Assembly (NCBI RefSeq): GCF_035593305.1 | Contig: NZ_CP141615.1 | Span: 3,131,722-3,195,721 of the forward strand | Length of the DNA: 64,000 nt | Source of the DNA: Limnochorda sp. L945t | Lineage (GTDB): Bacteria > Bacillota > Limnochordia > Limnochordales > Geochordaceae | Direction: 5' to 3' | Shown: positions 36,743 through 54,060 of the stretch, one piece after another | Position numbering within the stretch: position 1 is the first letter of the stretch | How the letters are laid out: the number at the start of each line of letters is the position of its first letter | Position numbers and translations under genes: made by a program | The notes under the pieces: model-generated | Seen by the model: the letters and a program-made list of their open reading frames with translations, nothing else | Database searches by the model: none | Told to the model about the DNA's origin: nothing

Positions 36743-36744
36743 GG

Positions 36745-37737: not shown

Positions 37738-37818
37738 TGCACAACGACCGAACTCGTCGCCGGACGGCTCACATGCCGGGAGTGCTGAGGAAAGGCTCTG
37801 AAGAGGGGGCTCCGTATC

Positions 37819-38769
37819 ATGCGACAAGGGCGAGCGATCTGGGCGATCCTTCTACTGGCAGCAATCCTGGCTCTGGGCTTCCCTGGCTTCGTCGCGATCG
37901 CCGCCGGGGTGGAAGTGGGCCTGGCAGTTGCCAATCTCGGTGCGACGTCGCAGGCTCGCGTGGCCGCCGAGTTCGAGAAGGTCGCCTCATCCAAGGGATG
38001 GACCGTGATCACGACAAATGCAGCCGGATCATGGAGCACTTTCACCAGCCAGATGGAGAACCTCGTCTCGCGGCGCGTGCGGGCGATCGTGGTGGCGATG
38101 GCCGACCTGCCCAGCATCCAGCCAGCCATCGACTCGGCTCTCCGGGCCAACATCCCCGTGGTGGCCATCGACTCGGGGTACGTCCCGGGCATCGTCGTAA
38201 ACATCACGATGAACAACTTCGTCGCCGGTGCGAAAGTCGCGCAGTACTTGGTCGATCGCTTGGGCGGGGAGGGGAATGTCATCCTTTTCAAGTTCCAGCA
38301 GCACTTCGGCACCCGCCAGCGCGGTAAGATCATGGACACCGTGCTCACCGAGTACCCGCGCATTAAGGTACTCGCGCAGCACGAGCTTCCACCAGTGGGC
38401 TTCGTTCAGGATGCTCAGGCTGCCATGGAAAACTTCCTGGCAAGGTACGGAGACCGCATCGATGCCGTTTTTGCACCATGGGACGACCCTGCGGCAGCCA
38501 TCACGCAGGCCATCACGGCAGCTGGATACAAGCGGGATAGCATGTTCGTGGTGGGAATCGACGGAACCCGGCAGGCTTACGACATGATACGAGCGGGTAC
38601 GCCCTTCGTGGCCACCGTCGCTCAACCCTTCGAAGCGTACGCGGACGAAGCTGTTCGCGTCGTGGAGGAACTGGTCGTGCACGGAAAGACCAAAGAACAA
38701 GTAACCGGTGGAGTGCCCACCATCTACCTGGATGCGCCCCTGATTACCCCGGCCAACGTGCCCCGCTGA
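37819..38769 (+). CDS. Periplasmic-binding-protein-like sugar receptor
   Basis: 316 residues from ATG 37819 with a signal peptide (AIWAILLLAAILALGFPGFV). Peripla_BP_4 fold: VEVGLAVANLGATSQARVAA, VRAIVVAMADLPSIQPAIDS, IPVVAIDSGY, DAVFAPWDDPAAAITQAI and FVVGIDGTRQAYDMI. It delivers a sugar or polyol to the permease encoded just upstream. A strong stem-loop follows the gene (38790-38830). Confidence 0.88.
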   Translation: MRQGRAIWAILLLAAILALGFPGFVAIAAGVEVGLAVANLGATSQARVAAEFEKVASSKGWTVITTNAAGSWSTFTSQMENLVSRRVRAIVVAMADLPSIQPAIDSALRANIPVVAIDSGYVPGIVVNITMNNFVAGAKVAQYLVDRLGGEGNVILFKFQQHFGTRQRGKIMDTVLTEYPRIKVLAQHELPPVGFVQDAQAAMENFLARYGDRIDAVFAPWDDPAAAITQAITAAGYKRDSMFVVGIDGTRQAYDMIRAGTPFVATVAQPFEAYADEAVRVVEELVVHGKTKEQVTGGVPTIYLDAPLITPANVPR

Positions 38770-38789
38770 TCTAGGTATTGGCAAGAAGT

Positions 38790-38830
38790 GCTGGGGGGTC
38801 GGCCACCACACAACGCTCTGGCCCCCCAGC
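38790..38830 (+). promoter_or_regulatory. Intercistronic stem-loop after the receptor gene
   Basis: GCTGGGGGG at 38790-38798 pairs perfectly with CCCCCCAGC at 38822-38830, extendable by two or three pairs, around a 23-base loop. No T-run follows, so it is not a typical terminator. Such hairpins after binding-protein genes often protect the upstream mRNA and raise receptor levels above those of the downstream enzymes; that role is inferred. Confidence 0.5.
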
Positions 38831-38856
38831 GCTCTCAGGAAGGGGCAGACGAGACC

Positions 38857-39597
38857 ATGCCCGGTCTTGAACCGATCACCGGACCCGACGGTCGAACCCT
38901 CATCATCGCTATCGACCATGGAGGCACCTTCGGTCCCATGGAGGGCCTCGAGGATCCGCTGTCAGTGGCCAAAGCGGCCCTCGAAAGCGGCGCCGACGCT
39001 CTCATCGTGACGCTGGGCTTTGCGAAACGATACCACGGTGCCCTGGCCGGCGCGCCGCTCATCGTCCGCGTCGATGGAGGCACCTCCTCCATTGGGCCGG
39101 ACTGGCGCCGTATGCGCCGGCTGTTCTCCGTAGAGCAGGCGCTCGAAGTAGGGGCCAGGGCCGTCATCGCCATGGGCTTCGTGGGATACGAGGGGGAAGC
39201 CGAGTCACTGGGGCAACTGGCTGAGGTCTGCGCGGAGTCCATGAAGCTACGCGTACCCCTGGTTGCCGAGATGCTGCCGGCCGGAAAGGAGGGGGAGACG
39301 GATCCGGATAGGCTTGCACTCGCTGCCCGCATCGGTGCCGAAATCGGAGCCGACCTTGTTAAGACGGGCTATACGGGGTCTCCGGACACCTTCCGAAAGA
39401 CCGTGCGGGGCTGCTTCGTGCCGGTTGTGGTCCGGGGTGGCCCCAGGATGGCAGACGAGGAGCAGGTCGTAGAGACAGCGCGCGGCGCAGTGGCAGCGGG
39501 CGCCATCGGGGTTGCATTCGGCCGCAACGTCTGGCAGAGCTCCGACATGCGCGCCATGATTCGACGGCTGACGCAGGTCGTCCACTCCCGCCCATGA
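38857..39597 (+). CDS. LsrF/FbaB-like class I aldolase (DeoC/LacD superfamily)
   Basis: 246 residues from ATG 38857. A TIM barrel with LIIAIDHGGTFGP (D20, H21), the region LIVRVDGGTSS, and the Schiff-base lysine K169 in ADLVKTGYTGSPDTF, as in LsrF and archaeal-type class I FBP aldolases. It would cleave or thiolyse the phosphorylated ketose produced by the FGGY kinase, whose gene follows 12 bp downstream. The closest operon analogue is lsr, where LsrF acts after LsrK and LsrG, but LsrG is absent here. Confidence 0.82.
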   Translation: MPGLEPITGPDGRTLIIAIDHGGTFGPMEGLEDPLSVAKAALESGADALIVTLGFAKRYHGALAGAPLIVRVDGGTSSIGPDWRRMRRLFSVEQALEVGARAVIAMGFVGYEGEAESLGQLAEVCAESMKLRVPLVAEMLPAGKEGETDPDRLALAARIGAEIGADLVKTGYTGSPDTFRKTVRGCFVPVVVRGGPRMADEEQVVETARGAVAAGAIGVAFGRNVWQSSDMRAMIRRLTQVVHSRP

Positions 39598-39609
39598 GGA
39601 GGCGCTGCG

Positions 39610-41097
39610 GTGGCTGATTTCCTGGTGGGCATCGACCTTGGAACCAGCAGCGTGAAGGTCGGCCTGGTCGCGGAAGACGGCCGGATCGTGGCCGTCGCCG
39701 CGCGCACGTACGAGACCTCTCATCCGTATCCGGGGTGGTCGGAGCAGCAGCCGGAGGAGTGGTGGGAGGCCACCGCCAGCGCGGCTGCAGCGGTCATGGA
39801 TGCTCTCCCAGCGGACGGACACGTCGTCGGCGTCGGCCTAAGCGGCCAATCGCCGGGCCACGTCGTGGTCGCAGAAGACGGCACGCCTTTGGGCCCGGCC
39901 ATTATCTGGTCCGATTGGCGAGCAGGTGACGAAGCCAGGCTAATATCGAACCTGGTGAACCCCGAGGAGATGCGACGGTACACGGGGTTCGGTTTCCCTG
40001 CCAATGCCTCCAACCCGTTGAGCCGGCTGCTTTGGCTTGTGCGTCATCGGCCCACCTGGATCGCCCGGGCGGCGGCCGTCCTTCAGCCGAAGGATTACAT
40101 CGCCCTGCAGCTCACAGATAGGATGGCCACGGATCAGTACAGCGCGTTTTCGGTGGCTCACGTGATCGAGCGCTGTTACCATCCGGAGCTCTTTGACCGT
40201 CTTGGCCTCCCCACGAGCCTGCTGCCTCCGCTCCTTTCCCCGGAAGAGACTGTGGGGCAGGTTACCTCGGCGGCTTCCGCCGAGACGCGCATTCCGGAGG
40301 GTACCCCGGTTAAAATCGGAACCATTGACGCTTGGTGCAGCATATTCGGTGCTGGCGCTTTGCTGCGGGGAGTCGCCGTTGACATTGCGGGGACGTCGGA
40401 GGTCATCGCACTGGTAACTGATCAAGCCCCCTACCAGGCTGACAGCGGGCTCATGCCTCTGTGGCCGGGCCTGTTCTTCGCGGGCGGGCCGACTCAGGTG
40501 GGAGCGTCTGCACTGCATTGGGTTTGGGGAGCCCTTCTCACGGACCGGAGGTCGTTCGACCCCGTGGTTCTCGAGCAGACGGCCCAGGGTTCGGAGCCTG
40601 GGGCCGAGGGACTGGTTTTCCTACCGTATCTGAGGGGCGAACGCGCCCCGATATGGAATAGGCACGCGCGCGGCGTCCTGTTCAATCTGACTGACCGGCA
40701 CCGGGCCTCTCACCTGGTTCGGGCCGTCTACGAAGGGGTGGCTTATAGCGTCCGCCATGTGCTGGAAGTCGCTTCCGCGGCCACAGGTCAGGCAGTGTAT
40801 GAAGTCCGCGTAACGGGCGGTGGCTCCCGAAGTGCTTTCTGGAATCAAGTCAAGGCAGACGTTCTGGGATTGCCGGTGATCCAGCTGGAATCGCACGAGA
40901 GTGCCGTTCTGGGCGCGGCCATCCTTGCGGGTTGCCCGGATGGGCGTCCGGAGATGTTGTCCGACCTGGTGCAGCGCATGGTGCGGCCCGCGCGCAGCTA
41001 CCCACCGGATATCCGCCACAAAGCCCGTTACGATCGGCTTTTCGAAACCTACAAAGCCTTGTATGCGGCAGTCAAAGACTTATACGAGCCTGTTTGA
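39610..41097 (+). CDS. FGGY-family carbohydrate kinase
   Basis: 495 residues from GTG 39610, with GGAGG 7 bp upstream. FGGY_N starts FLVGIDLGTSSVKVGLVAED; VGLSGQSPGHVVV replaces the GQMHG of xylulokinase; the catalytic aspartate is in IGTIDAWCSIFGAGA, and VTGGGSRSAFWNQVKADVLG is the ATP-side motif of FGGY_C. Complete length. Last gene of the SorC-led operon, in the position of lsrK. It probably makes the phosphorylated inducer sensed by the SorC regulator. Substrate unknown. Confidence 0.88.
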   Translation: MADFLVGIDLGTSSVKVGLVAEDGRIVAVAARTYETSHPYPGWSEQQPEEWWEATASAAAAVMDALPADGHVVGVGLSGQSPGHVVVAEDGTPLGPAIIWSDWRAGDEARLISNLVNPEEMRRYTGFGFPANASNPLSRLLWLVRHRPTWIARAAAVLQPKDYIALQLTDRMATDQYSAFSVAHVIERCYHPELFDRLGLPTSLLPPLLSPEETVGQVTSAASAETRIPEGTPVKIGTIDAWCSIFGAGALLRGVAVDIAGTSEVIALVTDQAPYQADSGLMPLWPGLFFAGGPTQVGASALHWVWGALLTDRRSFDPVVLEQTAQGSEPGAEGLVFLPYLRGERAPIWNRHARGVLFNLTDRHRASHLVRAVYEGVAYSVRHVLEVASAATGQAVYEVRVTGGGSRSAFWNQVKADVLGLPVIQLESHESAVLGAAILAGCPDGRPEMLSDLVQRMVRPARSYPPDIRHKARYDRLFETYKALYAAVKDLYEPV

Positions 41098-41352
41098 GTG
41101 CCGGTAGACAGGCAGAACCGCTCCACCAAAGGGCGCGAAGGGTACGGTCGGGGCCGCAACCGGAAGCGCCGGGGCTACCGACCACCTCTTACGACAGGCG
41201 GGTCTCGCCGTACCCGTTCCCCGGGAACCTAAGTCCTTCAGGACCTTGACTCCGCCCAGCAACCTTCAGCTACCTTCTCAGCGGAGGCTGCACACCGCCA
41301 CGCCTCGGAAACTTCAAACGAACGAGCGGACACGCAGGGAGGCCGGGCTCAA

Positions 41353-42195
41353 CTACCCCCTTAAGCCGCCCTGAGTCAAGCCCTCAACGAATCGCCGCTG
41401 CAGCAGCAGGAACAAGGCGGCAATGGGGATCAGCATGATAACGGCTCCAGCGCTGGTCATGCCCCAGTCCCGCCCGTAGCGGCTGGCAAAGGCCAAGAAG
41501 CTCGTCGTCACCGGCTTGAGCGCGTCGCTATGCAGGAATGTGACGGCAAACATGAACTCGTTGTAGGCCCAGAGTCCCACCACCAGCGCGGCCGTGAGAA
41601 ACCCTGGCCACGACAAGGGGACGACAATGCGGGTAAAGATCAGCCACTCTGAGGCTCCATCCACTCGAGCCGCATCCTCGAAGTCCGGCGGGATGGTGAG
41701 CATGTAAGAGCGCAACAGAAACGTGGCAAACGGAGAGTACAGGGCACAGTAGATAATCACGATGCCGCCCAGGTTATCCAGTAGTCCGAGCCATTTCCAT
41801 AGCACGAAGAGAGGTACCATGAAAAGCTGCGCGGGGATGCTCGTGCCAATGAGGAGGTACATCATTAGGAAGTTTGCCCCGCGGAAACGAAACCGGCTCA
41901 GCGCGTAGGCGGCCAAGCCAGCTACGAGGCAAACTCCGAGTATAGTAGCTGCGACAATGAGGCCGCTGTTACGCAATGTCACGGCGTAACGGCCCAGTGC
42001 CCAAGCCTTCGGGAAATTGCCCCATTCTACGCCTATCGTAGGCGGGCCAAGGGGGTTACGGGCAATATCCGGCACCGACTTAAGCGAATTGAAGAACAGC
42101 ACCGACAGCGGTCCCAAAGAGAAAATCGCGAGGAGGGTGAGCACTACGTAGTTGACCACGAGGCGGCCCGTTGCCGCCCTGCGCTTACGTATCAT
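41353..42195 (-). CDS. MalG-type ABC sugar permease
   Basis: 280 residues from ATG 42195, which overlaps the stop of the preceding permease as ATGA. Six membrane segments and the EAA loop (FEDAARVDGASEWLIFTRIV then VPLSWP) that contacts the ATPase. CUT1-type importer. No ATPase gene lies in this operon, so a shared MsmX/UgpC-like ATPase elsewhere in the genome is expected. Confidence 0.9.
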   Translation of the reverse strand: MIRKRRAATGRLVVNYVVLTLLAIFSLGPLSVLFFNSLKSVPDIARNPLGPPTIGVEWGNFPKAWALGRYAVTLRNSGLIVAATILGVCLVAGLAAYALSRFRFRGANFLMMYLLIGTSIPAQLFMVPLFVLWKWLGLLDNLGGIVIIYCALYSPFATFLLRSYMLTIPPDFEDAARVDGASEWLIFTRIVVPLSWPGFLTAALVVGLWAYNEFMFAVTFLHSDALKPVTTSFLAFASRYGRDWGMTSAGAVIMLIPIAALFLLLQRRFVEGLTQGGLRG

Positions 42196-43121
42196 ATCTC
42201 CCATCCCCGCCGCCGCAACCACATGAATAGACTTACCACAATGGCCGTGAAGAGGCTCATGCTAAGCCCAACCGCTGCTGCATACCCAGCTTCGAATCGG
42301 GCAAACGCGGCCTGGTACGCCTCGGTTGCCAATACCTCCGACGAGTGGGCTGGGCCGCCGCGGGTCAGAATGTAGATGTAGTCGAAAACGAGAAACGACC
42401 ATATGACTGTCATCAGCAATGTAAAGACCAGTGTCGGCCGGATCATCGGAAGGGTTACGTACCGGAACTCCTGCCACCGCCCCGCCCCCTCCAGGCGTGC
42501 CTCCTCATACAGCTGCGGATCCACCTGCTGCATGGCCGCGAGATAGACCACAACGAGGAAACCCCACCAGTGCCAGTTGTCCACGAAGGCTACCGTGTAT
42601 AGAGCTGTCTCTTCCTTTCCGAGGAAGGCCACGTTGAAGTACGGGATGCCATGGTGTGCGAGCCACGGGCCGATGCCGAGCAGCGGATTCAGAATGTTGC
42701 GCCATATCTGGGCATTCACGACGCTAGCGATGATGTAAGGTATGAAGTACGCGATGCGATAGAGGATCTGGCCACGTCGGATTCCTGCGAGTAGCGAGGC
42801 ACCGAGAAGCCCCATCGCGATGGGCACAGTGAGGAAGATGGCCGTCCACCTCAGGTTGTTGATCAGCGCGATGCGGTAGACGGGGTCATGTACCATCCGC
42901 ACGAAATTGGCCACGCCTATCCATCGCGCATTCCCCATGCCCGTCCAGTCCGTGAAGGCGATGATGACGCTTCCTACCGACGGCCCTAACACCACGAGTA
43001 CATTAAGCGCCAAGAGAGGGGAAAGGAACAGCCATGGCAAAAGACCCCGACGTGCGCGAGGGCGGCGCAAGACGCCCGCCCTCGCCTGTGCCTCTGCCCT
43101 AAGCTTGGCATGCACACCCAT
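42192..43121 (-). CDS. MalF-type ABC sugar permease
   Basis: 309 residues from ATG 43121. Six membrane segments (first LPWLFLSPLLALNVLVVLG) and the EAA loop LYEEARLEGAGRWQEFRYVT then LPMIRP. Partner of the MalG-type permease downstream and of the binding protein 37 bp upstream. The extended N-terminus is basic. Confidence 0.9.
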   Translation of the reverse strand: MGVHAKLRAEAQARAGVLRRPRARRGLLPWLFLSPLLALNVLVVLGPSVGSVIIAFTDWTGMGNARWIGVANFVRMVHDPVYRIALINNLRWTAIFLTVPIAMGLLGASLLAGIRRGQILYRIAYFIPYIIASVVNAQIWRNILNPLLGIGPWLAHHGIPYFNVAFLGKEETALYTVAFVDNWHWWGFLVVVYLAAMQQVDPQLYEEARLEGAGRWQEFRYVTLPMIRPTLVFTLLMTVIWSFLVFDYIYILTRGGPAHSSEVLATEAYQAAFARFEAGYAAAVGLSMSLFTAIVVSLFMWLRRRGWEI

Positions 43122-43158
43122 GCCGCCTCATTGCTCCCCTATGCTTCTGTCGTCGACC

Positions 43159-44502
43159 TCATCGGGTCGGAAGGGGTGGTCGCCGGCCTTGTTTGAGCTC
43201 TTCCTGAAAGAGCTCCTGCTGGCGGCGCTGGTATTCCAACACGGTGATCTTGCCGTTCCACACTTCTTCAAGCCCGTCGATAATGTATTGTTCCGTCCTG
43301 GCCGGCCAGAAGGTCCAGGTGGTGTAACCATAGTCGCCGGCAGCCGACGCCTTCGCCACGGCATCCAGCGCTCGTACCACCCGCGGATCCGCCTGCGACG
43401 GGAAGTAGTGGGGCGCGATCGCGATGGGTACCACCCACTCGCCTCTGACTTCCGAGATGATCTGAGCTGCCCTCGCTGGATTGTTGTACAACCAATCCAG
43501 CACCTCGGCGGCGGCGTCGGGATGAGCGCTCTTGGCGTTGATAGAGACCGTGCTACCAATGCCGATATCATAGGTGGGCCGCACTCCGGCGCGAAGCGAA
43601 GGGAGAGGCGCCCAGTCCCAGTCGTTCCCCGTGCCCTGGAAGTAAGAAGGCGCGTGCAAAAACCCCCACGTGCCCTCCATTTTCATCCCAGCCGTCCCAT
43701 TTCCGAGCGCTCCCCAGATAGTGTCCCAGTCGAGCGCATAGTACCGCTCCCTGCCTCCACCAAACCACCCGCTATCCACGTACGACTTCAGCAACTCCAT
43801 GGCCTGTACGAACAGCGAGTCATCCCACCGCCGCTTGCCACTAAGCGCCTCGTACACCGCGTCCGGGCCGGCGTAGTGGTTGTAGAACACGGTGACAAAC
43901 CACTCGTTGGTGCCCTTCCAGCTCGCGTTGCCGTGCGAGAAGGGGATTATGCCGCTCTTTTGCATGACCGTCGCTAGCTGTTCGAGTTCTTCGCGATTGG
44001 CGGGAGGTTTCCAGCCGTTCCTCTCGAAGAGGGTACGATTGTAGAAGAGCACCATGAACTCGTACGTGAGCGGCAGGCTGTATAGCTTTCCGTCAATCTC
44101 GCCGACTTGATATGCCCAGGGGAAGAGTTTCTGTTTCCAACCGTAGCGTGCCGCATACCGGTCGAGGGGGAGCAAGTGACCCGCCTGGGCGTATTCCACC
44201 ACGTACGCCGGTCCAGGGGTTTGTACGATGTCCGGCCCCGCACCCGCCTGCATGGCCGTACGGAGTACCCGGTCGAGGTCCTCCTTCCAGACAACTTCCA
44301 ATTCGACGTCCTTGTGGGCCTGGTTGAACGGTTTCACGAACAGCCGGTCGATGGCCTCCCGCTCCACCTCCTGCAAGGGCTCCGTCCACCACACAACCTT
44401 CACTTTCTGTGCTTCGACAGTCGGCGAGGCGCTACTCATCAATAGTATGCCCAACGCAGCACCGACACCGACGCTATATGCCAACCGCGCCAGCGTCTTC
44501 AT
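43159..44502 (-). CDS. Family 1 extracellular sugar-binding protein
   Basis: 447 residues from ATG 44502, with GGAAGGGGA upstream and a signal peptide (LAYSVGVGAALGILLMSS). SBP_bac_1 fold: VKVVWWTEPLQEVEREAIDR, TPGPAYVVEYAQAGHLLPLD, YSLPLTYEFMVLFYNRTLFE, and AGMKMEGTWGFLHAPSYF. It lies 123 bp after the GntR-glycohydrolase gene, and a GntR-type palindrome (44535-44549) sits 33 bp before its start. Confidence 0.9.
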   Translation of the reverse strand: MKTLARLAYSVGVGAALGILLMSSASPTVEAQKVKVVWWTEPLQEVEREAIDRLFVKPFNQAHKDVELEVVWKEDLDRVLRTAMQAGAGPDIVQTPGPAYVVEYAQAGHLLPLDRYAARYGWKQKLFPWAYQVGEIDGKLYSLPLTYEFMVLFYNRTLFERNGWKPPANREELEQLATVMQKSGIIPFSHGNASWKGTNEWFVTVFYNHYAGPDAVYEALSGKRRWDDSLFVQAMELLKSYVDSGWFGGGRERYYALDWDTIWGALGNGTAGMKMEGTWGFLHAPSYFQGTGNDWDWAPLPSLRAGVRPTYDIGIGSTVSINAKSAHPDAAAEVLDWLYNNPARAAQIISEVRGEWVVPIAIAPHYFPSQADPRVVRALDAVAKASAAGDYGYTTWTFWPARTEQYIIDGLEEVWNGKITVLEYQRRQQELFQEELKQGRRPPLPTR

Positions 44503-44534
44503 TTTCTCCCATCCCCTTCCGACGACATCTCTGG

Positions 44535-44549
44535 ATGGTCTTTGACCAT
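44535..44549. promoter_or_regulatory. Palindrome ATGGTC-TTT-GACCAT, candidate GntR operator
   Basis: A perfect 6+6 bp inverted repeat around TTT, fitting the GT-N(x)-AC pattern of GntR/FadR-type operators. It lies 33 bp upstream of the binding-protein start, between it and the GntR-fusion gene, so it could control the importer. Confidence 0.55.
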
Positions 44550-44625
44550 GCTCCTACAATAACCCGTGAACCACTTCGTCGCCCCTTCTCCGCAACGAGA
44601 TTTGACAGGCTACCCTACCCTACCT

Positions 44626-46194
44626 TTACCTTTGCTGCGCTACAACGAGAGTTCGCCGCGCCAGTTCGGAGATCCGACACTGGGGCTCACGCTGAAGAGC
44701 CGTCTCCAGGCGGTCGTTCAAGGGAGACGTCCACCGGGACGGCAGCCGCGCCGCACCTAGCACCCCACCAATGATAGTGCCCACACTTGCCCCGTTGCAG
44801 TCCGTGTCCAGACCGCACATCACTGCAATGGAAACCGCTTGGGTAAAGTCGCCTTGCCCCCATAACAACCCGATCAGCTCTGCTGCTAGATTATTGAGGG
44901 AGTGAACCCAATGATAATGCCCCCACGTTCTGTACAGGTGATCACACGCTTCTTCCCACGTGCGCCCGGACCTCCACAGCTGAAGGAACTCACGCACCAC
45001 GCCCATGGTTCGAGATTGCTCCGGCACCTGCGACATTCCGGCACGTATGATTGTCTCGATGTCGTCGGCTACAAGCGCAGCTGCGACGCATCCTGCTTGA
45101 AACATGGCGCTGTAAACACCGTTCTTCGTATGAGACAACGAAGCGTCGCGATAAGCCATCTCGGCCGCCAGACGCGGGTTGCCAAGGTTTACTAAGCCGT
45201 AAATGTCAGCTCTGATGCGGGCGCCGATCCATTCTCGGAAGGGGTTGCGGTATGTGGCCGTTCTTGGAGGAACCAGCCCTTGCACGAGATTCCGATAGGC
45301 CATTCTCTCGGCAGTGTACACGAGAAGATAGGGCAGGTTGTGGAGCCACGCTTGAGCCACGTCGCGCGTCGTAAAGCCCCGACCCTTTTCCTCTAGAAGC
45401 CTCAAGCCAAGCACCGTGTAGTCGAGATCGTCGTCGCGTACCCCGTGGTCGAGGTAGGGCTTGGTCGCCCGCTTTGACTCATCTGAAATGGTGAAATCTT
45501 CCGGAACACACTCCGGACAGTAAGGAAGGTAGTCGGTCGGTGGCCAGTACCCTGTAGCCTCAAGGTATCGACGGATGGCGGTCCGCGACCATCCCTCTAT
45601 GGGTTTGCCTAGCATGCAGCCGGCGACCCGGCCCAGCCACGCTCCGTAGATCCGGTCGTAGAGAACATCGGGGTCACCTGGACAAGGTAGCTCCGCGCTT
45701 GCAGGCAGCGTCTTCTGGATGTCCTGAAAGTCCTGTGGCTCTTGGTAGGGAAAGGATGGATCGGAAGGTAAGCCCTGCAATCTGTCGAAAAATGCCGATA
45801 GCTCGCCAGGCGACCACACCCGCTTCCCCGTGTCCCAGGTAAGGCGAGCCTCCTTGACATCGAAACCTTCCTGCTCAAGTTGGGTGAGCTCTTCGGTGAT
45901 CAGTTCACGAAGCTCTTCTTCTTGCATGCTTTGCTCCTCCTGCTGCTCCGACAGGTTCATCCGTACGAAGATTCCTTTGCCAGGCACAACCGTAATGACA
46001 CCTATGTACTCGAGCGCTCGCAGGCCCTCGCGCAGAGAAGAGCGTCCCACGTTCAGCTGCCGCATCAACTCTTGCTCAGACGGTAACGGATCGCCAGGCT
46101 CCATATGGCGAGAGGCAATGTAGCGCCGGACTTCCTCGGCAACGAGCAATGACAAGCTCTCCCGTCGGACCGGCCGAATGCTGTCAGCGGTCAC
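44626..46194 (-). CDS. GntR HTH - ADP-ribosylglycohydrolase fusion protein
   Basis: 522 residues from GTG 46194 (AAGGGG 8 bp upstream; the GTG at 46203 is too close to that site). Residues ~14-77 are a GntR winged helix (LLVAEEVRRYIASRHMEPGD, LPSEQELMRQLNVGRSSLRE, VVPGKGIFV). A glutamate-rich, probably coiled linker (~81-112) leads to an ADP-ribosylglycohydrolase domain from ~175: YDRIYGAWLGRVAGCMLGKP, metal-site acids DDD at 254-256 and D463/D465 in CGLDTDCNGASVG, plus AYRDASLSHTKNGVY. The catalytic acids are kept, so it may be both regulator and enzyme, or use the domain as a sensor. In E. coli, YegU (glycohydrolase) and YegW (GntR) are separate neighbours. Confidence 0.88.
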   Translation of the reverse strand: MTADSIRPVRRESLSLLVAEEVRRYIASRHMEPGDPLPSEQELMRQLNVGRSSLREGLRALEYIGVITVVPGKGIFVRMNLSEQQEEQSMQEEELRELITEELTQLEQEGFDVKEARLTWDTGKRVWSPGELSAFFDRLQGLPSDPSFPYQEPQDFQDIQKTLPASAELPCPGDPDVLYDRIYGAWLGRVAGCMLGKPIEGWSRTAIRRYLEATGYWPPTDYLPYCPECVPEDFTISDESKRATKPYLDHGVRDDDLDYTVLGLRLLEEKGRGFTTRDVAQAWLHNLPYLLVYTAERMAYRNLVQGLVPPRTATYRNPFREWIGARIRADIYGLVNLGNPRLAAEMAYRDASLSHTKNGVYSAMFQAGCVAAALVADDIETIIRAGMSQVPEQSRTMGVVREFLQLWRSGRTWEEACDHLYRTWGHYHWVHSLNNLAAELIGLLWGQGDFTQAVSIAVMCGLDTDCNGASVGTIIGGVLGAARLPSRWTSPLNDRLETALQREPQCRISELARRTLVVAQQR

Positions 46195-46220
46195 TGCACG
46201 CACCCCTTGTGAGCAGCTGA

Positions 46221-46239
46221 TCAGACCTGTCCGATCTGA
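46221..46239. promoter_or_regulatory. Inverted repeat TCAGA-N9-TCTGA before the GntR-fusion gene
   Basis: A perfect 5-bp dyad with a 9-base spacer, 27 bp upstream of the gene start; its arms contain the GGTCTGA-like half seen in the neighbouring site. Confidence 0.35.
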
Positions 46240-46270
46240 CCCTACTTTCGGGGCTTGGGACTTTGCAACC

Positions 46271-46284
46271 GGTGTCAGACCATG
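46271..46284. promoter_or_regulatory. Candidate GntR/FadR-type operator (ATGGTCTGACACC on minus)
   Basis: On the minus strand ATGGTCTGACACC resembles the FadR core TGGTCNGACNT and shares ATGGTC with the palindrome before the binding-protein gene. It lies 77 bp upstream of the GntR-fusion start, suggesting autoregulation. Confidence 0.4.
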
Positions 46285-46703
46285 CTACGGGGTAGCAGGA
46301 CAACCCGTTTTGCGTGAGCCTTGACTAGCGCTCGCGCACGGCGCTTCTTGCCCCGTTACGCGCGCACACTCGGCAGAAGACCCTACGGTACCAGCTCCCG
46401 CAGAAACTCCCTGGCACTATTGAGATCGACGACAACCCGCGGTCGGTGCGAAGGACCCAGTGGCCCAGAGAGAGCCCCTCCCGGCTGCTCGACAGGGCCA
46501 AGCGGACCAGCACCAGCTGGGGCCGAGAGAACGTGTCCGGAAATGTCCGAATTGCGACCGTTGGCGACACGAGCCGCGGAGTCCTGCGAAGAAGAAAACG
46601 CGTACTTTTTACATTACCCCCGGCAGGATGATCGGGGGTGAAGATCGTATCCGTTTGCACACCAGACCGAACCTGTCCGGATGGACCCAGGCGGGTGAGA
46701 CCG

Positions 46704-47471
46704 ATGCTGGCGGAGCGGCGGCGGGCCCGGATCCTGGAAGCGGTACAAAACGGGCGCGCGGTGGCGGTGCGCGACCTCTGCCGGCTCCTCGGCGTGTCGG
46801 ACCGGACCGTGCGCAGGGACCTCGAGGTGCTCGACCGCTTCCGGCTCCTGCGCCGCACCCACGGTGGCGCCGTAGCCACCGCGACCGTGGACGATTCCCG
46901 TATCCCCCTGGAAGAGCGCTACGGGCTCGCCTCCGCCGAGAAGGAACGGATCGCCCGGGTGGCGGTGTCGCTCCTCAACCCCAACGACCGTGTGATCCTC
47001 GACGCAGGTAGCACCACGTACCAGGTGGCGCTACAGATCCCCCGGGACCTGCCGCTCGTGGTCATCACCCACGCGATCAACGTGGTGACGGCCCTCTTGG
47101 ATCTGCCGCTCGTCGAGGTATCGGTGTGCGGCGGGGCCCTCCGCCGGAGCAACCGCTCTCTCATCGGCCCCGATACCGTGAAGGCGTACGAGAACGTGCG
47201 CGCGGACATCGCCTTCCTGGGGGCCACAGGGGTGACTCCCGAACTTGACTTCGTCAACACCAACCGGATGGAGGGCGAGGTCAAGCGCGCCATCCTCCGG
47301 GCAGCCCGTCGTAGCATCATCCTCGTCGACCACACCAAGTTTGGGAAGCTGGCCCTCACGCCTTTCGCATCAGTCTCCCACGGCATCTCAGGGGTCATCA
47401 CGGACCGGCGGACACCCGAGGATTACGTGCGCCGGCTACGTGACGCCGGCATCTGGGTCCGCGTGGTGTAG
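46704..47471 (+). CDS. DeoR/GlpR-family transcriptional regulator
   Basis: 255 residues from ATG 46704. HTH: LAERRRARILEAVQNGRAVA, LCRLLGVSDRTVRRDLEVLD, RRTHGGAV. DeoRC domain: ILDAGSTTYQVALQI, VCGGALRRSNRSLIGPDTV, FLGATGVTPELDFVNTN, LVDHTKFGKLAL. It heads the plus-strand operon of importer and dehydrogenases up to 54060 and probably represses it until a phosphorylated intermediate appears. Confidence 0.9.
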   Translation: MLAERRRARILEAVQNGRAVAVRDLCRLLGVSDRTVRRDLEVLDRFRLLRRTHGGAVATATVDDSRIPLEERYGLASAEKERIARVAVSLLNPNDRVILDAGSTTYQVALQIPRDLPLVVITHAINVVTALLDLPLVEVSVCGGALRRSNRSLIGPDTVKAYENVRADIAFLGATGVTPELDFVNTNRMEGEVKRAILRAARRSIILVDHTKFGKLALTPFASVSHGISGVITDRRTPEDYVRRLRDAGIWVRVV

Positions 47472-47589
47472 GAGGGAGGAGTCCGGGGCCATTGGGCGTG
47501 CCTGGCCACGATAGGTTGGGTCGTGGGAGGACGGCAGTTCATCGGGCGACCGGAGTCCGGGGTCCGAGCCTTGAGGGGAGGCCTATCAG

Positions 47590-49056
47590 ATGGAGAGCCT
47601 GCGGAGTTGCACCCGGCGCGTGCCGGCCAAGGCCGTCGTGGCGATGCTGGGGGCGTTGAGCCTGTTGCTGGCGATCGGTGGGGTTGCAGCCGCAGCGGAG
47701 TCGTGGTGGGCGCAAGCCGCCCGGCCGTATCGCGGCGTGACCATCACAGGCATCTCGGAGAGCACTCCTCCCTCAAAATACATGCAGCAAGTGCTGGCTC
47801 CGGCCTTTGAGAAAGAGACGGGCATCAAAGTCCAGTTCGAAGTGACATCCTGGGACCAGATGTACGACAAAGAGATCAAGGATATGGAGGCGGGGACGGG
47901 CGTCTACGACTTCGTCTACATCGAACAGGACATCGTCTACGCCTATCTGGCCCGCAACTTCCTGGTCGACCTGACGGAGTTCATGAAAACCCATCCCAAA
48001 CTGGTCGAGCCCGAGCTCGAGATCGGGGACTTCACGTCGTTCATCAACTACTACAAGTCGGCCGAAAGCGGCGACATCTTCGGCATACCGTTCGAATCCT
48101 TCCTCAAGGTATACGTCTACCGCAAGGATCTCTTCGAAAACCCGCAGATCCGGTCCGAGTTCAAGGCCAAGTATGGGCGGGATCTGAGGCCTGCGGTCAA
48201 CTTCAAGGAGTACGAGCAGATTGCGGAGTTCTTCACGGATTACGGCAAGCGCCACAACATGCAGCTGTGGGGTACGACCGTCACCGCGGGGCCGCATCCG
48301 GCCGCATTCTACGAGATGGTCGAGACGATCTGGCCGTCCTGGGGAGTCTACAATTGGGGCATCAATACCCAGACGTGGCGCGCCACTACCGCCAATGGCG
48401 GCGCTCTTGACAGTCCTCGCGCCAAAGAAGCCTTCCGGTGGTGGGTGAGCCTCCTGAAGTACGCGCCGCCTGAGGCCACCAACAGCACGTGGGACGAGGT
48501 GGCGGCCAGCATGGCCGCGGGCCGGGCTGCTCAGGGCTGGGTCTACGGCGAAAACGTCGCCTGGATCGCCACCGACGCCTCTCGGTCGCGGGTGGTGGGG
48601 AAGATCGGGGTGGCCTTACCGCCGCTCTATCCGGGAGTGATCAACGAAGCCGCCAAGGGCGAGGGGTACATTGGTTACTACGACGGCGGAGCCCTGGGCA
48701 TTCCGCACTCCTCTCGCAAGAAAGAGGCAGCCTTCCTGTTCATCCAGTGGGTCGCCCGCAAGGCCGTACAGGGTGACTTCGCCGCCGCTGGTGCCCGGAT
48801 CGTGCGGACATCCACGTTCGACGACCCCAAGGTGAAAGCCATCGATCCCAAGGTCGACCACTACTTCACGCTCATGAAGACGGCGGGCCCGCTCTTTGCC
48901 GGCGCTCCGCCCTTCCCGTTCCATGCTACCATCCGTGAAGTCATGCTGCCGTACATCCTAAAGGGCATTTCCGGTGAGCTGAGCCCGGAGGCCGCGCTTG
49001 ATCAGGCGGCCAAAGCGGTGGACGCCGAACTTTCCAGGCTGGGGTACGGTAAGTAA
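47590..49056 (+). CDS. Family 1 extracellular sugar/polyol-binding protein
   Basis: 488 residues from ATG 47590, with GGGGAGG 8 bp upstream and a signal peptide ([20 protein letters not shown]). SBP_bac_1 fold: [91 protein letters not shown]. Members of this type often serve polyol importers. Permease genes follow directly. Confidence 0.9.
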
Positions 49057-49057
49057 G

Positions 49058-49954
49058 ATGGCCGTCGTTTCACAGGGGATTCGCAGGGAACGCACAGCGT
49101 GGGGGCTCCTCGCCCCCACGCTCCTCATCCTGGGCTTCACGGGCCTCCTGCCCTTCGTGTACGTGCTCTACGTGGGATTCTTCGACTGGAACGTCTTCGC
49201 CCGTGTGGCGCAGCTCACGTGGGCAGGCGTTGCCAATTACCGTCAACTGGTCTTTGACACGGACTTCCTGGCCTCGTTGTGGCGCGGGATCCGCTTCACG
49301 CTCTGGGCGGTAGCGATCGAAATGGTGCTGGGCTTCGCCCTGGCTCACCTGCTGATGAAATCCTTCCGCGGCCGTGGTTTCTTTCGGGCCGTGCACGCGC
49401 TGCCCCTGACCATCGCTCCGATTGCCGTTGGCGCCACATGGCGACTCATGACGTTACCGGGGTTTGGCATCGTGCCGTACTGGCTGTCGCGATGGGGCAT
49501 CGATTACAACATCGGCCGCGATGCCACCCAAGCCTTCTTCACCACCGTGGTCATGGACGTTTGGCACTGGACGCCTTTCGTGACCCTCACCTTGCTGGCA
49601 GGACTCAACGCACTTCCAAAGGAGCCCTTCGAGCAAGCCCAGGTCGACGGGGCCGGCCCATGGTACATCCTGCGCTACCTCACCCTACCGTTGCTGCGTC
49701 CGGTGCTTCTCACGGCGCTCTTCTTGCGCATCATGGACGCGCTGCGGATTGTGGACGAGGTGTGGATGCTGACGGGGGGCGGTCCTGGCACCGCGACCCG
49801 CTATGCCGGTATCCACGTGTGGCGGGTGGTCTTCCCCAAGACGGACTACGGGTACGGCTCCGCCATGTCGGTGCTGCTGCTCTACTTCACGATCGTCCTC
49901 TGCTGGCTGTTGATGACCTCCATCACGCAGGCCCGCAAAGAAGGTGCCGGGTGA
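49058..49954 (+). CDS. MalF-type ABC sugar permease
   Basis: 298 residues from ATG 49058, 1 bp after the binding-protein stop. Six membrane segments and the EAA loop [20 protein letters not shown] then LPLLRP. Its stop overlaps the next gene as GTGA. CUT1 importer subunit. Confidence 0.9.
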
Positions 49955-50829
49955 GCAGGATGCGACGGGCACGCCTCGTGGCTGGCAGTTGGCGATGGTT
50001 CAAGCGATCCGGATGGCTTTACGCCGCCTGGACGCTCCTGAGCCTCGTGACGCTGTTCCCGATTTACTGGATGCTACTGGTGTCGGCCCGCACTCGACTC
50101 GAGCTGTTCTCGGAGCCTACCCTCGTCCAGAAGAGCTTCTACGCGGAAAACTACATCCGCCCGCTGCTGCGCGACATCTACGGCGCGTATCTGGGTAACT
50201 CGCTGCTGGTGGCGACCGGCAACACGTTGGTGGTCGTGGTGGCCGCGGTTCTGGCCACTTACGCGCTGTCCCGCTACCGGGTGAGCGGGGCCCAGAACAT
50301 CTTCTTCTGGGCCATCACCAACCGGATGGCGCCGCCTGCCGCGTTCATGCTGCCCCTCTATCTCCTCTATACCCGGGTGATCAGGGTGGGGGACTGGTCG
50401 CTCTTCGACACGCGCATCGGGCTCATCCTGGCCTACTCGGTGTTCAACTTGCCGTTTGCGATCTGGCTGTTGAAGGGTATCGTCGACGGCATTCCAAAGG
50501 AGCTGGACGACGCGGCGATGGTCGACGGGGCGTCGCTATTCCAGGTGCTGACGAGCATTATCGTGCCTCTGGCCGCGCCGGGCATTGCCATCACGGCCTT
50601 GCTCAGCTGGATCTTCGCCTGGAACGAATACCTTTTCGCGGCCACCTTGACCAGCTCGCACGCGCGGACAATCACCACGGGCCTTGCTGAATTCGTCACC
50701 GTGGTGGGCACCAACTGGGGCGAGATGGCCGCGATGTCCGTGGTGGCCACGTTGCCGGCTCTCGTCCTGCTCGGACTGGTGCAGCAGTACATCATATCCG
50801 GGCTGACTTTCGGGGCGGTACGCGAGTAG
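49951..50829 (+). CDS. MalG-type ABC sugar permease
   Basis: 292 residues from GTG 49951 (AAGAAGG 6 bp upstream, coupled to the preceding stop); ATG 49960 is an alternative. EAA loop [20 protein letters not shown] then VPLAAP, and the closing [13 protein letters not shown] typical of the subunit. No ATPase gene is present in the operon, as for the importer at 41353-44502. Confidence 0.9.
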
Positions 50830-50861
50830 GAGCGCGGGCCGGAGAAGGGGGAGCGTCACAG

Positions 50862-51113
50862 ATGAGCATGCCTTCCGGCCATCCGGCCCGCAGGGCCGGA
50901 TGGCAGCCGCCGTCGGCCGGGGGTAGCAAAGAGCCTCGCCCGCCCGGCTGGCTGCGGATGGAGACCAACCTCTTCGACCGGATCTTCATCGGGGGTGTGC
51001 TGTTCGTAGCGATCCACCTGCTTTGGATGCGCTTCGTGGAGGCGTATGTGCCGTTGGGGCTGGCCACAGTGCTGTCCCTGGCGCTCATGGCCGCGATCAT
51101 CAGGTGGGGGTGA
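50862..51113 (+). CDS. Small membrane protein of a sugar ABC transporter operon
   Basis: 83 residues from ATG 50862. A Pro/Gly-rich soluble start is followed by two membrane segments (RIFIGGVLFVAIHLLWMRFV and LGLATVLSLALMAAIIRW). Small two-helix proteins of this look occur after MalG-type permeases in polyol/sugar operons; no function is established. It may be an accessory subunit of the importer. Confidence 0.65.
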   Translation: MSMPSGHPARRAGWQPPSAGGSKEPRPPGWLRMETNLFDRIFIGGVLFVAIHLLWMRFVEAYVPLGLATVLSLALMAAIIRWG

Positions 51114-51122
51114 GGGGCCAGT

Positions 51123-52205
51123 ATGGCGAGCGCGAAGACGATGGACGCGGTAGTCGTGCACGGCCCGAGGGACTACCGTTGGGAAAGCCGGCCGGTACCC
51201 GAGGTGGGCCCGGGCGAGGTGCTGGTCAAGGTACTGGCCACGGGCATCTGCGCCAGCGACGTCAAGACCTTCTACGGGGCGCGGGTGTGGGGGTCTGACG
51301 ATATCCCTGCTTACATCGAGGCGCCGGTCATCCCCGGGCACGAGTTCATCGGGCAGGTGGTGGCGCTGGGTGAAGGGGCCGGAGAGAAGTACGGGGTCCA
51401 GGTGGGGGATCTGGCCGTCTCCGAGCAGATCGTGCCGTGCGGCCGGTGCCGCTTTTGCAGGCGGGGCCAGTACTGGATGTGCCAGCGGCACGACATCTAC
51501 GGGTTCAAGAAGGATCGGGCCGAGGGCTCCTGGGCCCAGTACATGAAGTACCCGGCCAACTCGCTGGTGTACAAGGTGCCTTCGGACATGCGCCCGGAGG
51601 TCGCCGCGACCATCGAGCCGCTGGCCTGCGCCATCCACGCCGTAGAGCGAGGCGACATCCAGCTGGGTGACGTGGTGGTCATCGCCGGGATGGGGCCGAT
51701 CGGGCTTTTCATGCTGCAGGTGGCCCGCATGAAAGGGCCCGGCTTGCTCATTGCGGTCGACCCCAAGCCGCACCGGCTGGAGGTGGCCAGGCAACTCGGC
51801 GCGGACCTCGTCCTCGACCCGGCCGCCGAGGATGCGGTGAAGGCCGTGCTGGATCGGACGGACGGGTACGGCTGTGACGTCTACATCGAGGCGAGCGGCG
51901 CGGGCGCCGCCATCCCTCAGGGTCTGCAGATGTTGCGCAGGCTCGGGACCTTCGTGGAGTTCAGCGTCCATGCCGGTCCGGTAGCCGTCGACTGGTCGGT
52001 CATCGGCGACGTGAAGGAGCTCAACGTCCACGGCTCGCACCTGGGGCCCTACGCCTACCCGAAAGCCATCCAGTACCTGCATACCGGCAAGGTGACGGCC
52101 GATCCCATCGTGACGCACCGGTTGCCGTTGCGCCAGTATCTCCAGGGCATCGAGATGGTGCACGAGGGCAACGAGTCGATCAAGGTCGTCTTGATTCCCG
52201 ACTGA
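51123..52205 (+). CDS. Zinc-dependent polyol dehydrogenase (MDR family)
   Basis: 360 residues from ATG 51123. Catalytic zinc C43 (ATGICASDVKTF), H73 and E74 (IPGHEFIG); structural cysteines C106, C109, C112 and C120; Rossmann GMGPIG. The pattern is close to erythritol/L-threitol and altritol dehydrogenases described for polyol pathways, but also to other sorbitol-type enzymes. It follows the small membrane protein by 9 bp and precedes an SDR dehydrogenase. Confidence 0.87.
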   Translation: MASAKTMDAVVVHGPRDYRWESRPVPEVGPGEVLVKVLATGICASDVKTFYGARVWGSDDIPAYIEAPVIPGHEFIGQVVALGEGAGEKYGVQVGDLAVSEQIVPCGRCRFCRRGQYWMCQRHDIYGFKKDRAEGSWAQYMKYPANSLVYKVPSDMRPEVAATIEPLACAIHAVERGDIQLGDVVVIAGMGPIGLFMLQVARMKGPGLLIAVDPKPHRLEVARQLGADLVLDPAAEDAVKAVLDRTDGYGCDVYIEASGAGAAIPQGLQMLRRLGTFVEFSVHAGPVAVDWSVIGDVKELNVHGSHLGPYAYPKAIQYLHTGKVTADPIVTHRLPLRQYLQGIEMVHEGNESIKVVLIPD

Positions 52206-52227
52206 ACGACCTACGGGCGGAAGGCGG

Positions 52228-53007
52228 GTGGACGCAGTGGGCATCCTCGATCGGCTTCGGTTGGACGGGCGGGTCGCGCTGGTGACGGGCGGCGGCCAGG
52301 GGATCGGGCGCGGCTTCGCCCTGGCGCTGGCGGAAGCCGGCGCGCACGTGGCGATCCTGGACCTCAACGAAGCGACGGCCAACGCGGTGGCCGGCGAGGT
52401 TCGGTCCAGGGGCCGGGAGGCCCTGGTGGTGGTAGGAGACGTCACGGTGGCGGCCGACTGCCGCCGTGCCGTACAGGCTGTGGTGGACCGCTGGGGAAGG
52501 CTGGACGTCGGGGTCAACAATGCCGGCGTCGGTTCATGGGCTGATGCCGAGGTATACCCCGAAGCGGAGTGGGATCGGGTCCTCGCCATCAACCTCAAGG
52601 GGGTCTTCTTGTGCGCCCAGGCTGAAGCGCAAGTGATGATCCCGCGCAAGTACGGCAAGATCATCAATACCGCCTCGATGTCGGCGCACATCGTCAACCG
52701 CCCCCAAAACCAGGTAGCCTATAATGCTTCCAAGGCGGGCGTGGTGCACCTGACCCGCACGCTGGCTGCCGAGTGGGCCCGCTACGGCATTCGGGTCAAC
52801 AGCATCAGCCCCGGGTACATCCACACGCCGCTGGTGGAATCGGAGGCGGTTCGGCACCTCGTGCCCCGGTGGCTGGAGGCGACGCCGCTCGGCAGGCTTG
52901 GGGAGGTGGAGGATCTGCAGGGTGCGGTCGTCTACCTGGCGAGCGAGGCGAGCGACTTCATGACGGGCCACGACCTGGTCATAGACGGCGGCTACACCGT
53001 GTGGTAA
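52228..53007 (+). CDS. Short-chain dehydrogenase/reductase
   Basis: 259 residues from GTG 52228; GTG 52237 is a possible start. Classical SDR: VTGGGQGIG at 19-27, NNAG at 97-100, N122, and the catalytic S150-Y165-K169, with SPGYIHTPL and the closing DGGYTVW. Similar in layout to D-threitol, sorbitol and sorbose dehydrogenases. With the MDR enzymes on either side it suggests stepwise or stereo-specific oxidation of a polyol. Confidence 0.88.
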   Translation: MDAVGILDRLRLDGRVALVTGGGQGIGRGFALALAEAGAHVAILDLNEATANAVAGEVRSRGREALVVVGDVTVAADCRRAVQAVVDRWGRLDVGVNNAGVGSWADAEVYPEAEWDRVLAINLKGVFLCAQAEAQVMIPRKYGKIINTASMSAHIVNRPQNQVAYNASKAGVVHLTRTLAAEWARYGIRVNSISPGYIHTPLVESEAVRHLVPRWLEATPLGRLGEVEDLQGAVVYLASEASDFMTGHDLVIDGGYTVW

Positions 53008-53049
53008 GACGGGGGAGGCACATTGAGGAAGGAAGGAAGGGAGCTCTCC

Positions 53050-54060
53050 GTGCGGGCTGTCGTCATGGACCGGCCGGGGCAGGTCGAGGTGCGCGAGGTG
53101 CCCGTGCCCTTCATCGGGCCGCATGAGGTCCTGGTCAGGGTGCGGGCCGCCGGGATCTGCGGGACCGACGTGCACATCTTCCGGGGGGAGTTCGTACCCC
53201 GGTTTCCCCTTACTCCTGGCCACGAGTTTTCCGGGGAGGTCGAGGCGGTGGGCGACGCGGTGCGGGGGTTCCGCCCCGGCGACCGCGTCGCGGCCGATCC
53301 CAACGTCTACTGCGAACGGTGCTACTTCTGCAAACAAAACAAGCAAAACTTCTGCGAGAACTGGGAAGCGATCGGCGTCACGCTGCCCGGCGCCTTCGCC
53401 GAGTACGTGGCCGTGCCCGACGCCTCCCTCTTTCCCATCGCCGACGGGATGTCGTTCGCGCAAGGGGCCTTCACGGAGCCGCTCTCTTGCGTCGTATACG
53501 GGCAGCAGCGCGCCCGCCCGCCGCTCGGCGGCAGTGTGCTGATCTTCGGAGCCGGCCCCATCGGGCTACTGCACCAGCAGCTCGCCAAGAGGAACGGCGC
53601 CGGCCTGGTCGTGATGGTCGACGTGCGCCGGGACCGCCTCCAACAGGCGAAGTCCCTCGGGGCCGACCACGTCGTGCCGGCCGGAGACGGGATGGAGCAG
53701 GAACTGCGGGCCGTTGCCCCCCGGGGGTTCGAGCTCGTCGTCGAGGCGACCGGCGTGCCGGCCGTCGTGGAAAACGCCATCCGGTTCGTCCAGAACGACG
53801 GGACGCTCCTGGTCTTCGGCGTCAGCCCCAACGAGAGCAGCATCCGGGTCAACCCGTACGAGATCTACAAGCGGGACCTGCGGATCGTCGGCTCGTTCTC
53901 GCTGCGCAAGACCTTCCAGGCGGCGCTCGAGCTCCTGGCGCAGCGGGCCATCGACGTGGAGCCGCTCATCGGGCAGCGGATCGGGCTGGACGAGTTTCCC
54001 CGGGCCCTGCAGGCCATGGCCCGTGGGGAGGCCCCGGGCAAGATCCTGGTCCAACCGTAA
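53050..54060 (+). CDS. Zinc-dependent sugar/polyol dehydrogenase (MDR family)
   Basis: 336 residues from GTG 53050, with GGAAGGGAG 6 bp upstream; TTG 53023 is a weaker alternative. Catalytic zinc C37 (AAGICGTDVH), H58, E59; structural cysteines C88, C91, C94, C102; Rossmann GAGPIG. Related to threonine/sorbitol dehydrogenases. Last gene of the DeoR-led operon, ending 50 bp from the convergent araM gene. Confidence 0.87.
   Translation: MRAVVMDRPGQVEVREVPVPFIGPHEVLVRVRAAGICGTDVHIFRGEFVPRFPLTPGHEFSGEVEAVGDAVRGFRPGDRVAADPNVYCERCYFCKQNKQNFCENWEAIGVTLPGAFAEYVAVPDASLFPIADGMSFAQGAFTEPLSCVVYGQQRARPPLGGSVLIFGAGPIGLLHQQLAKRNGAGLVVMVDVRRDRLQQAKSLGADHVVPAGDGMEQELRAVAPRGFELVVEATGVPAVVENAIRFVQNDGTLLVFGVSPNESSIRVNPYEIYKRDLRIVGSFSLRKTFQAALELLAQRAIDVEPLIGQRIGLDEFPRALQAMARGEAPGKILVQP

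Follow-up and report, generated by a model that had tools for sequence, protein, structure and literature searches.

One gene in the window (the whole 64-kb stretch of DNA analysed here) encodes a GntR-type DNA-binding head joined to an ADP-ribosylglycohydrolase (ARH) domain, and this fusion protein is probably an autoregulating repressor of its own operon, with the ARH domain sensing an imported glycoside or a product of that glycoside. Among the sequence comparisons on which this proposal is built, the position of the gene in its operon speaks most strongly for the fusion as the regulator of that operon and for its ARH domain as the replacement of a LacI sensor. The gene and its domains are laid out as follows.

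44626..46194, minus strand: GntR-ARH fusion gene (522 amino acids from GTG 46194; 525 amino acids from GTG 46203)
46203..46208, minus strand: ribosome-binding site AAGGGG, serving GTG 46194 (assigned from the sequence)
45964..46143, minus strand: GntR winged helix, FadR-type, residues 21-80 (Pfam PF00392, E 1e-16)
45679..45912, minus strand: cap at the N-terminal side of the ARH, residues 98-175, kept in stand-alone relatives
44734..45645, minus strand: ARH domain, residues 187-490 (Pfam PF03747, E 2.9e-50)

The reading frame on the minus strand is uninterrupted from either of two GTG codons (44626-46203 or 44626-46194), and GTG 46194 is the better start because AAGGGG lies 8 nt ahead of it and overlaps GTG 46203; residue numbers used here are those of the 525-amino-acid version and exceed those of a preliminary description of this DNA by 3. 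That description had proposed a single frame joining a GntR winged helix to a full ARH domain, which agrees with our results, as the frame 44626-46194 is intact and Pfam finds both domains. The N-terminal winged helix scores 60.7 bits against PF00392 (cut-off 27), with GntR also recognized in the fused proteins of two further genomes (G004 and G007, two species of one genus in a different family than the window's), and the match to PF03747 (172 bits) covers the whole profile, 1-287. The top NCBIfam matches of the head are the FadR-subfamily regulators NanR, LldR, PhnR, GlcC, and PdhR; Pfam found neither an FCD helical sensor domain nor a UTRA domain in the fusion, where GntR and ADP_ribosyl_GH are the only domains. 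The Glu-rich linker that had been described between them did not stand as a long linker: the true linker is short (about residues 82-95, with low pLDDT at 86-90), and most of the remainder is a conserved ARH cap, with the pattern ELxQxxEEGxD...FPYxEPSxLxxI common to the fusion and its stand-alone relatives. Since these relatives begin at about fusion residue 98 and carry the cap, the fusion is best described as a GntR head joined onto the start of a normal capped ARH member (clade ARHlong).

GntR-ARH fusions with the same domain order are present in the window's genome (G000), G004, and G007, and hence in two genera and two families; the proteins of G004 and G007 share 45-47% full-length identity with the window's protein, and the three form one clade (support 94/93). 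A frame break between the domains, named beforehand as a potential refutation, was sought and not found, and the architecture is full length in both other genomes. For an assembly or annotation artefact no supporting point was found, and the same architecture recurs in three assemblies, two of which are single-contig genomes, leaving this explanation with a negligible probability; frame error or artefact is ruled out for GntR-ARH by these three assemblies. The other potential refutation, that the domains are always separate in homologues, describes the great majority of them, yet three species, spread over two families, have the domains joined. Of the 73 genomes of the class, 20 gave a match with an E value no worse than 1e-60; the GntR fusion is present in three of these, and one has a LacI head on the same ARH clade:

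L122:1141-2760 (G044:C324), minus strand: LacI-type helix-turn-helix joined to the same ARH clade, 540 amino acids (Pfam LacI 3.7e-15, ADP_ribosyl_GH 1.4e-50)

The LacI-ARH is known from this one draft genome contig alone, where a truncated ABC permease comes next and the contig ends within the first part of another ARH, a stand-alone one. It groups apart from the GntR fusions, beside a sequence from a Chloroflexota sample (support 96/93); a single clade of all four fusions had no support but was not rejected either (AU p = 0.20). As GntR and LacI heads belong to different families, at least two grafting events would be needed. Some 1,700 genomes contained about 260 other ARH genes without such a fusion. 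Specifically, no GntR-ARH beyond those already known was found in 398 genomes of the window's phylum, and none was found in samples around an Anaerolineae (400 genomes), an Armatimonadota (251), an Actinoallomurus (297), and a Phycisphaerae genome (246), among 80 further loci from genome contigs, or in a plasmid search. Seeming matches that start from residue 59-77 had no helix-turn-helix at the loci examined; outside those loci a GntR head is excluded for such matches, while other head types are not. The absence from samples of other groups led us to reject the idea that GntR-ARH is a widespread architecture.

Downstream of the fused gene, the operon continues with the genes of an ABC importer.

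43159..44502, minus strand: ABC solute-binding protein (SBP), CUT1/sugar type, the next operon gene (Pfam SBP_bac_1 2.2e-29)
42192..43121, minus strand: ABC permease 1 (orthologues in L113, L114, L121, and L261)
41353..42222, minus strand: ABC permease 2 (orthologues in L113, L121, and L261)

Strong matches to the window's SBP (>400 bits) were found in 6 of the 73 class genomes, with an ARH in every one of the six operons; SBPs beside other ARHs score only about 20-45 bits. The G000 operon runs GntR-ARH, SBP, permease, permease, with no other ARH inside, and those of G004 and G007 run GntR-ARH, SBP, permeases, and then a second, separate ARH at the end (the second permease of G004 was not called by a simple gene finder, and the gap fits one). 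The operons of G042 and G046 consist of LacI, SBP, permease, permease, and a stand-alone ARHlong, and that of G040 consists of LacI, SBP, permease, permease, and another ARH. As three of the six operons thus start with GntR-ARH and three with LacI while encoding a separate ARH, the fusion occupies the regulator slot. The LacI protein of G042 bears a normal periplasmic-binding (sugar) sensor domain, and the window's SBP is 45% identical to the SBP of one unfused operon and 46% identical to that of one fused operon. The separate terminal ARH in G004 and G007 is what a sensor role of the fused copy would predict. That the fusion takes the place of LacI as the first gene of orthologous transporter operons strengthens the earlier suggestion that the glycohydrolase fold is likely the sensing part. 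The functional link between ARH, regulator, and transporter that had been drawn from Escherichia coli also gains from the 6/6 orthologous operons with an ARH and from the report that YegW is the repressor of yegTUV (PMC10819704).

A neutral or incidental fusion, in which the GntR head has no regulatory function or two domains are merely co-expressed, would be in keeping with the rarity of the architecture (4 of roughly 260 ARH-bearing cases) and with the absence of the region from a genome labelled as the same species; it is at odds with an operon position that matches the regulator slot and with a winged helix that is still a clear Pfam GntR in 3/3 species at ~45% protein identity, and we consider it improbable. 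A SorC-type regulator gene, divergent from the fused gene in G004 and G007 (L113:4383-5624; L114:5813-6889), could be the actual or a second regulator of the operon in these genomes. With regard to the ligand, comparison of the SBP with solved structures returned generic sugar binders only, with no clear ligand. The initial suggestion of an ADP-ribosylated or ribosylated compound holds up in part: a small imported glycoside is suggested by the sugar-type ABC importer, but nothing points specifically to ADP-ribosylated proteins or ADP-ribose.

The ARH domain was further characterized with regard to its predicted structure and to the following active-site positions.

45595..45597, minus strand: E203, glutamate of the ARH3 E41 type by alignment position (E in 164/167 stand-alone relatives and in all fusions)
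45427..45435, minus strand: D257-D258-D259, first metal-site acids (conservation alignment)
44797..44808, minus strand: D466-T467-D468-C469, second metal-site motif (conservation alignment)

An AlphaFold2 model of the fusion (23 aligned sequences) has a mean pLDDT of 90 and a pTM of 0.84, and its head and ARH are connected through a weak hinge (residues 86-90). The G007 protein (L033), when modelled, shows the same domain order (mean pLDDT 87.5), with the wing and the following segment (62-82) poorly predicted. The modelled head matches GntR heads at Z 11-13, and the modelled ARH part matches ARH3, DraG, and ARH1 at Z 28-33 (for ARH3, Z 33 and rmsd 2.7 over 302 residues; for DraG, Z 30) and also matches MJ1187. 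The likeness to DraG, ARH3, and MJ1187 lies in the fold (Z 30-33 over ~300 residues) and the metal-site acids, whereas sequence identity to structures of the ARH3/DraG type is 15-20% and the fusion has an added cap, R256 and C469 in place of Thr ligands, and a DNA-binding head. The structure prediction and metal-site check proposed in the preliminary description thus yielded an ARH fold at pLDDT 90 with D257, D258, D466, and D468 present. The acids that it had listed as kept (254-256, 463, and 465) are D257, D258, D259, D466, and D468, all of which, like E203, are 95-100% conserved in 167 stand-alone ARHlong sequences; the metal-site acids (DD and DxD) and E203 are present in 4/4 fusions. ARH3 and DraG carry what we take to be two Thr metal ligands (T76 and T317 in ARH3), and R256 and C469 stand in their place, as judged by sequence motif position and not by superposed coordinates. 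Because stand-alone relatives differ there too, the missing Thr ligands represent a trait of the clade and no loss in the fusions.

These features bear on two alternatives for what the ARH domain does. Signalling similar to that of DraG or ARH3, in which removal of ADP-ribose from a protein, a nucleic acid, or the fusion itself would be coupled to transcription, is compatible with the fold match to ARH3, DraG, and ARH1 (Z 28-33), but we judge it very unlikely given an identity of just 15-20% to these proteins, the absence of the ARH3-type Thr ligands, an operon that encodes a solute importer, and the finding that no ADP-ribosyltransferase gene was recognized among the annotated neighbours of the fused genes. 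On the other hand, since all metal-site acids are kept, the fused ARH may also hydrolyse its ligand. Taken further, the ARH would be a full catabolic hydrolase of the imported glycoside whose turnover state sets DNA binding, making the fusion a trigger enzyme that is pathway enzyme and repressor in one. The retained metal-site acids and E203, unlike the lost catalytic motif of the Nudix-type NrtR/AraR repressors (PMC4666351), and the G000 operon without any other ARH are consistent with this reading. By contrast, G004 and G007 encode a separate ARH in the same operon, G000 has another ARH gene at ~553 kb on C1 (L002:403-2436; no DNA-binding head, adjoining an apparent ABC permease gene), and the two Thr ligands of ARH3 and DraG are not kept (R256; C469), though likewise in stand-alone relatives. 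On balance we treat full catabolism by the fusion as a tentative possibility, though as the main rival to the proposed autorepressor. We are similarly doubtful about a bifunctional trigger enzyme, i.e., a working ARH sensor by which the inducer is degraded, that would have arisen two or more times through the joining of unrelated heads (GntR and LacI) to the same ARH clade.

If the fusion is an autoregulating repressor, its operators would be expected just upstream of its own start codon, where the following candidates are located.

46220..46241, minus strand: two candidate operator sites of the motif GGTCWGAY, GGTCTGAT (46220-46227) and GGTCAGAT (46234-46241)
46272..46282, no strand assigned: candidate FadR-type palindrome GTGTCAGACCA, with 1 mismatch to TKGTMNKACMA (not significant alone)

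GGTCWGAY occurs four times in the 64-kb window, and three of these occurrences fall within 62 bp, at 46220-46281. G004 and G007, which belong to a single genus, both have a TTGACA promoter ahead of the fused gene and, after it, an identical GAACATATCAGACAAGT, in otherwise diverged DNA. The core of this sequence, GTCTGAT, occurs once in the window (5.7 expected), at 46220, 26 nt upstream of the fused start; the longer footprint reaches 11/15 there, tied with three other places in the window. The GGTCWGAY-type sites resemble, by their letters, the FadR-subfamily operator consensus TKGT/ACMA (TKGTMNKACMA; PMC4494728), and a scan of the window with that consensus gave 14 sites against 9.8 expected, which is not significant. 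A palindrome search upstream of the fused gene showed nothing clear, and a promoter scan found none before the window's fused gene. As the motif was picked with the sequences already in view and the agreement of the longer footprint with the window is only 11/15, we regard it as a lead and not as proof.

In the proposed autoregulation, the operon under control would comprise the regulator-ARH, the SBP, permease 1, and permease 2. GntR heads need dimerisation, and the fusion would act as a dimer whose heads bind sites of the GGTC(T/A)GA(T/C) type close before its own start codon. The solute that the ABC importer takes up, probably a small riboside-like glycoside, or what is formed when it is hydrolysed, would bind in the metal-containing ARH pocket and shift the DNA-binding heads, releasing the promoter. 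Since the active-site acids are kept, the protein may also hydrolyse its inducer, slowly or at full rate, and the switch may be reset or modulated in this way. We infer a small riboside-like glycoside from the sugar-type importer, the PfkB kinase beside related actinobacterial ARHs, and ARH chemistry.

Joining a helix-turn-helix to an enzyme fold that retains an active or near-active site is a known arrangement in MocR/GabR and BirA, where the fold is that of an aminotransferase or a biotin ligase and not, as here, an ARH. With the FadR subfamily of GntR regulators, the fusion shares the head domain and TKGT/ACMA-like candidate sites, but it has an ARH with its own cap instead of the FCD helical sensor; a 2015 paper on the GntR family divides it by C-terminal domain into FadR, HutC, MocR, YtrA, AraR, and PlmA, none of which is an ARH (PMC4494728). 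E. coli YegW (GgaR) is a single-target repressor of yegTUV, which encodes an MFS transporter, an ARH, and a sugar kinase, with ADP-glucose as its reported effector (PMC10819704). Both systems combine a GntR regulator, an ARH, and a transporter in one local unit; however, regulator and ARH are separate proteins in E. coli and one fused protein in the window, the E. coli transporter is of the MFS nucleoside:H+ type whereas that of the window is an ABC importer, and the window's operon lacks a kinase. In NrtR and BtAraR, a winged-helix repressor uses a Nudix fold as ligand sensor, the ligand rotates the head, and the catalytic motif is lost (PMC4666351); these proteins likewise carry an enzyme fold on a winged helix, and the fusion, like them, is encoded at the head of the presumptively regulated operon, but head and fold are different and the active-site acids are kept in 4/4 fusions. 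With the parts of the YegW system separate and the NrtR/BtAraR motif lost, the fusion thus follows a known design, a helix-turn-helix with an enzyme-fold sensor, and its unusual trait is the intact enzyme site. In the open-access literature, to which our search was limited and whose silence is therefore a weak absence, no paper on GntR or LacI joined to an ADP-ribosylglycohydrolase was found and YegW alone surfaced; domain-architecture databases may already list GntR-ARH.

The ARH would join a short list of enzyme folds that serve as sensors for DNA-binding heads. As the capped ARH clade is common and no assigned substrate was found for it, a regulator with that ARH as its sensor provides a handle on the clade: the inducer of the operon is probably the ligand of the ARH, and, with the active site apparently intact, it can be tested directly if regulators are able to use up the signal to which they respond. 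If the trigger-enzyme reading were true, these operons would report directly on the substrate for which a large orphan ARH clade is built.

Divergent from the fused gene's operon, the window carries a further operon (46638-50829) that has a DeoR regulator of its own and encodes another ABC sugar importer, distinct from the first, and the region from 33 kb to 64 kb is crowded with sugar genes, including FGGY kinases, dehydrogenases, LacI, and SorC. In G072, whose label gives the same species, nothing closely matches the 18-kb sugar-operon region at 36000-54000 (short matches of 69-73% only), and window positions 10-30 kb match G072 in short pieces only (66-92%); the sugar-operon region looks accessory, or the species label of G072 is doubtful.

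Outside the class, the capped ARH clade is frequent, being present in half of the sampled Armatimonadota genomes and in a sixth of an Actinomycetia-type sample. In Actinoallomurus, Nonomuraea, Streptomyces, and relatives (L045, L049, L054, L057, and others), as many as four different ARH genes stand in tandem behind a CUT1 transporter, and at one actinobacterial locus (L104) a PfkB kinase follows the ARH genes. Finally, loci of the Porticoccaceae/SAR92 type (L034-L055) encode marine gammaproteobacterial ARHs of the capped clade that bear a conserved extra C-terminal domain of ~90 residues, and these ARH genes adjoin genes of the enolase superfamily and SDR genes.
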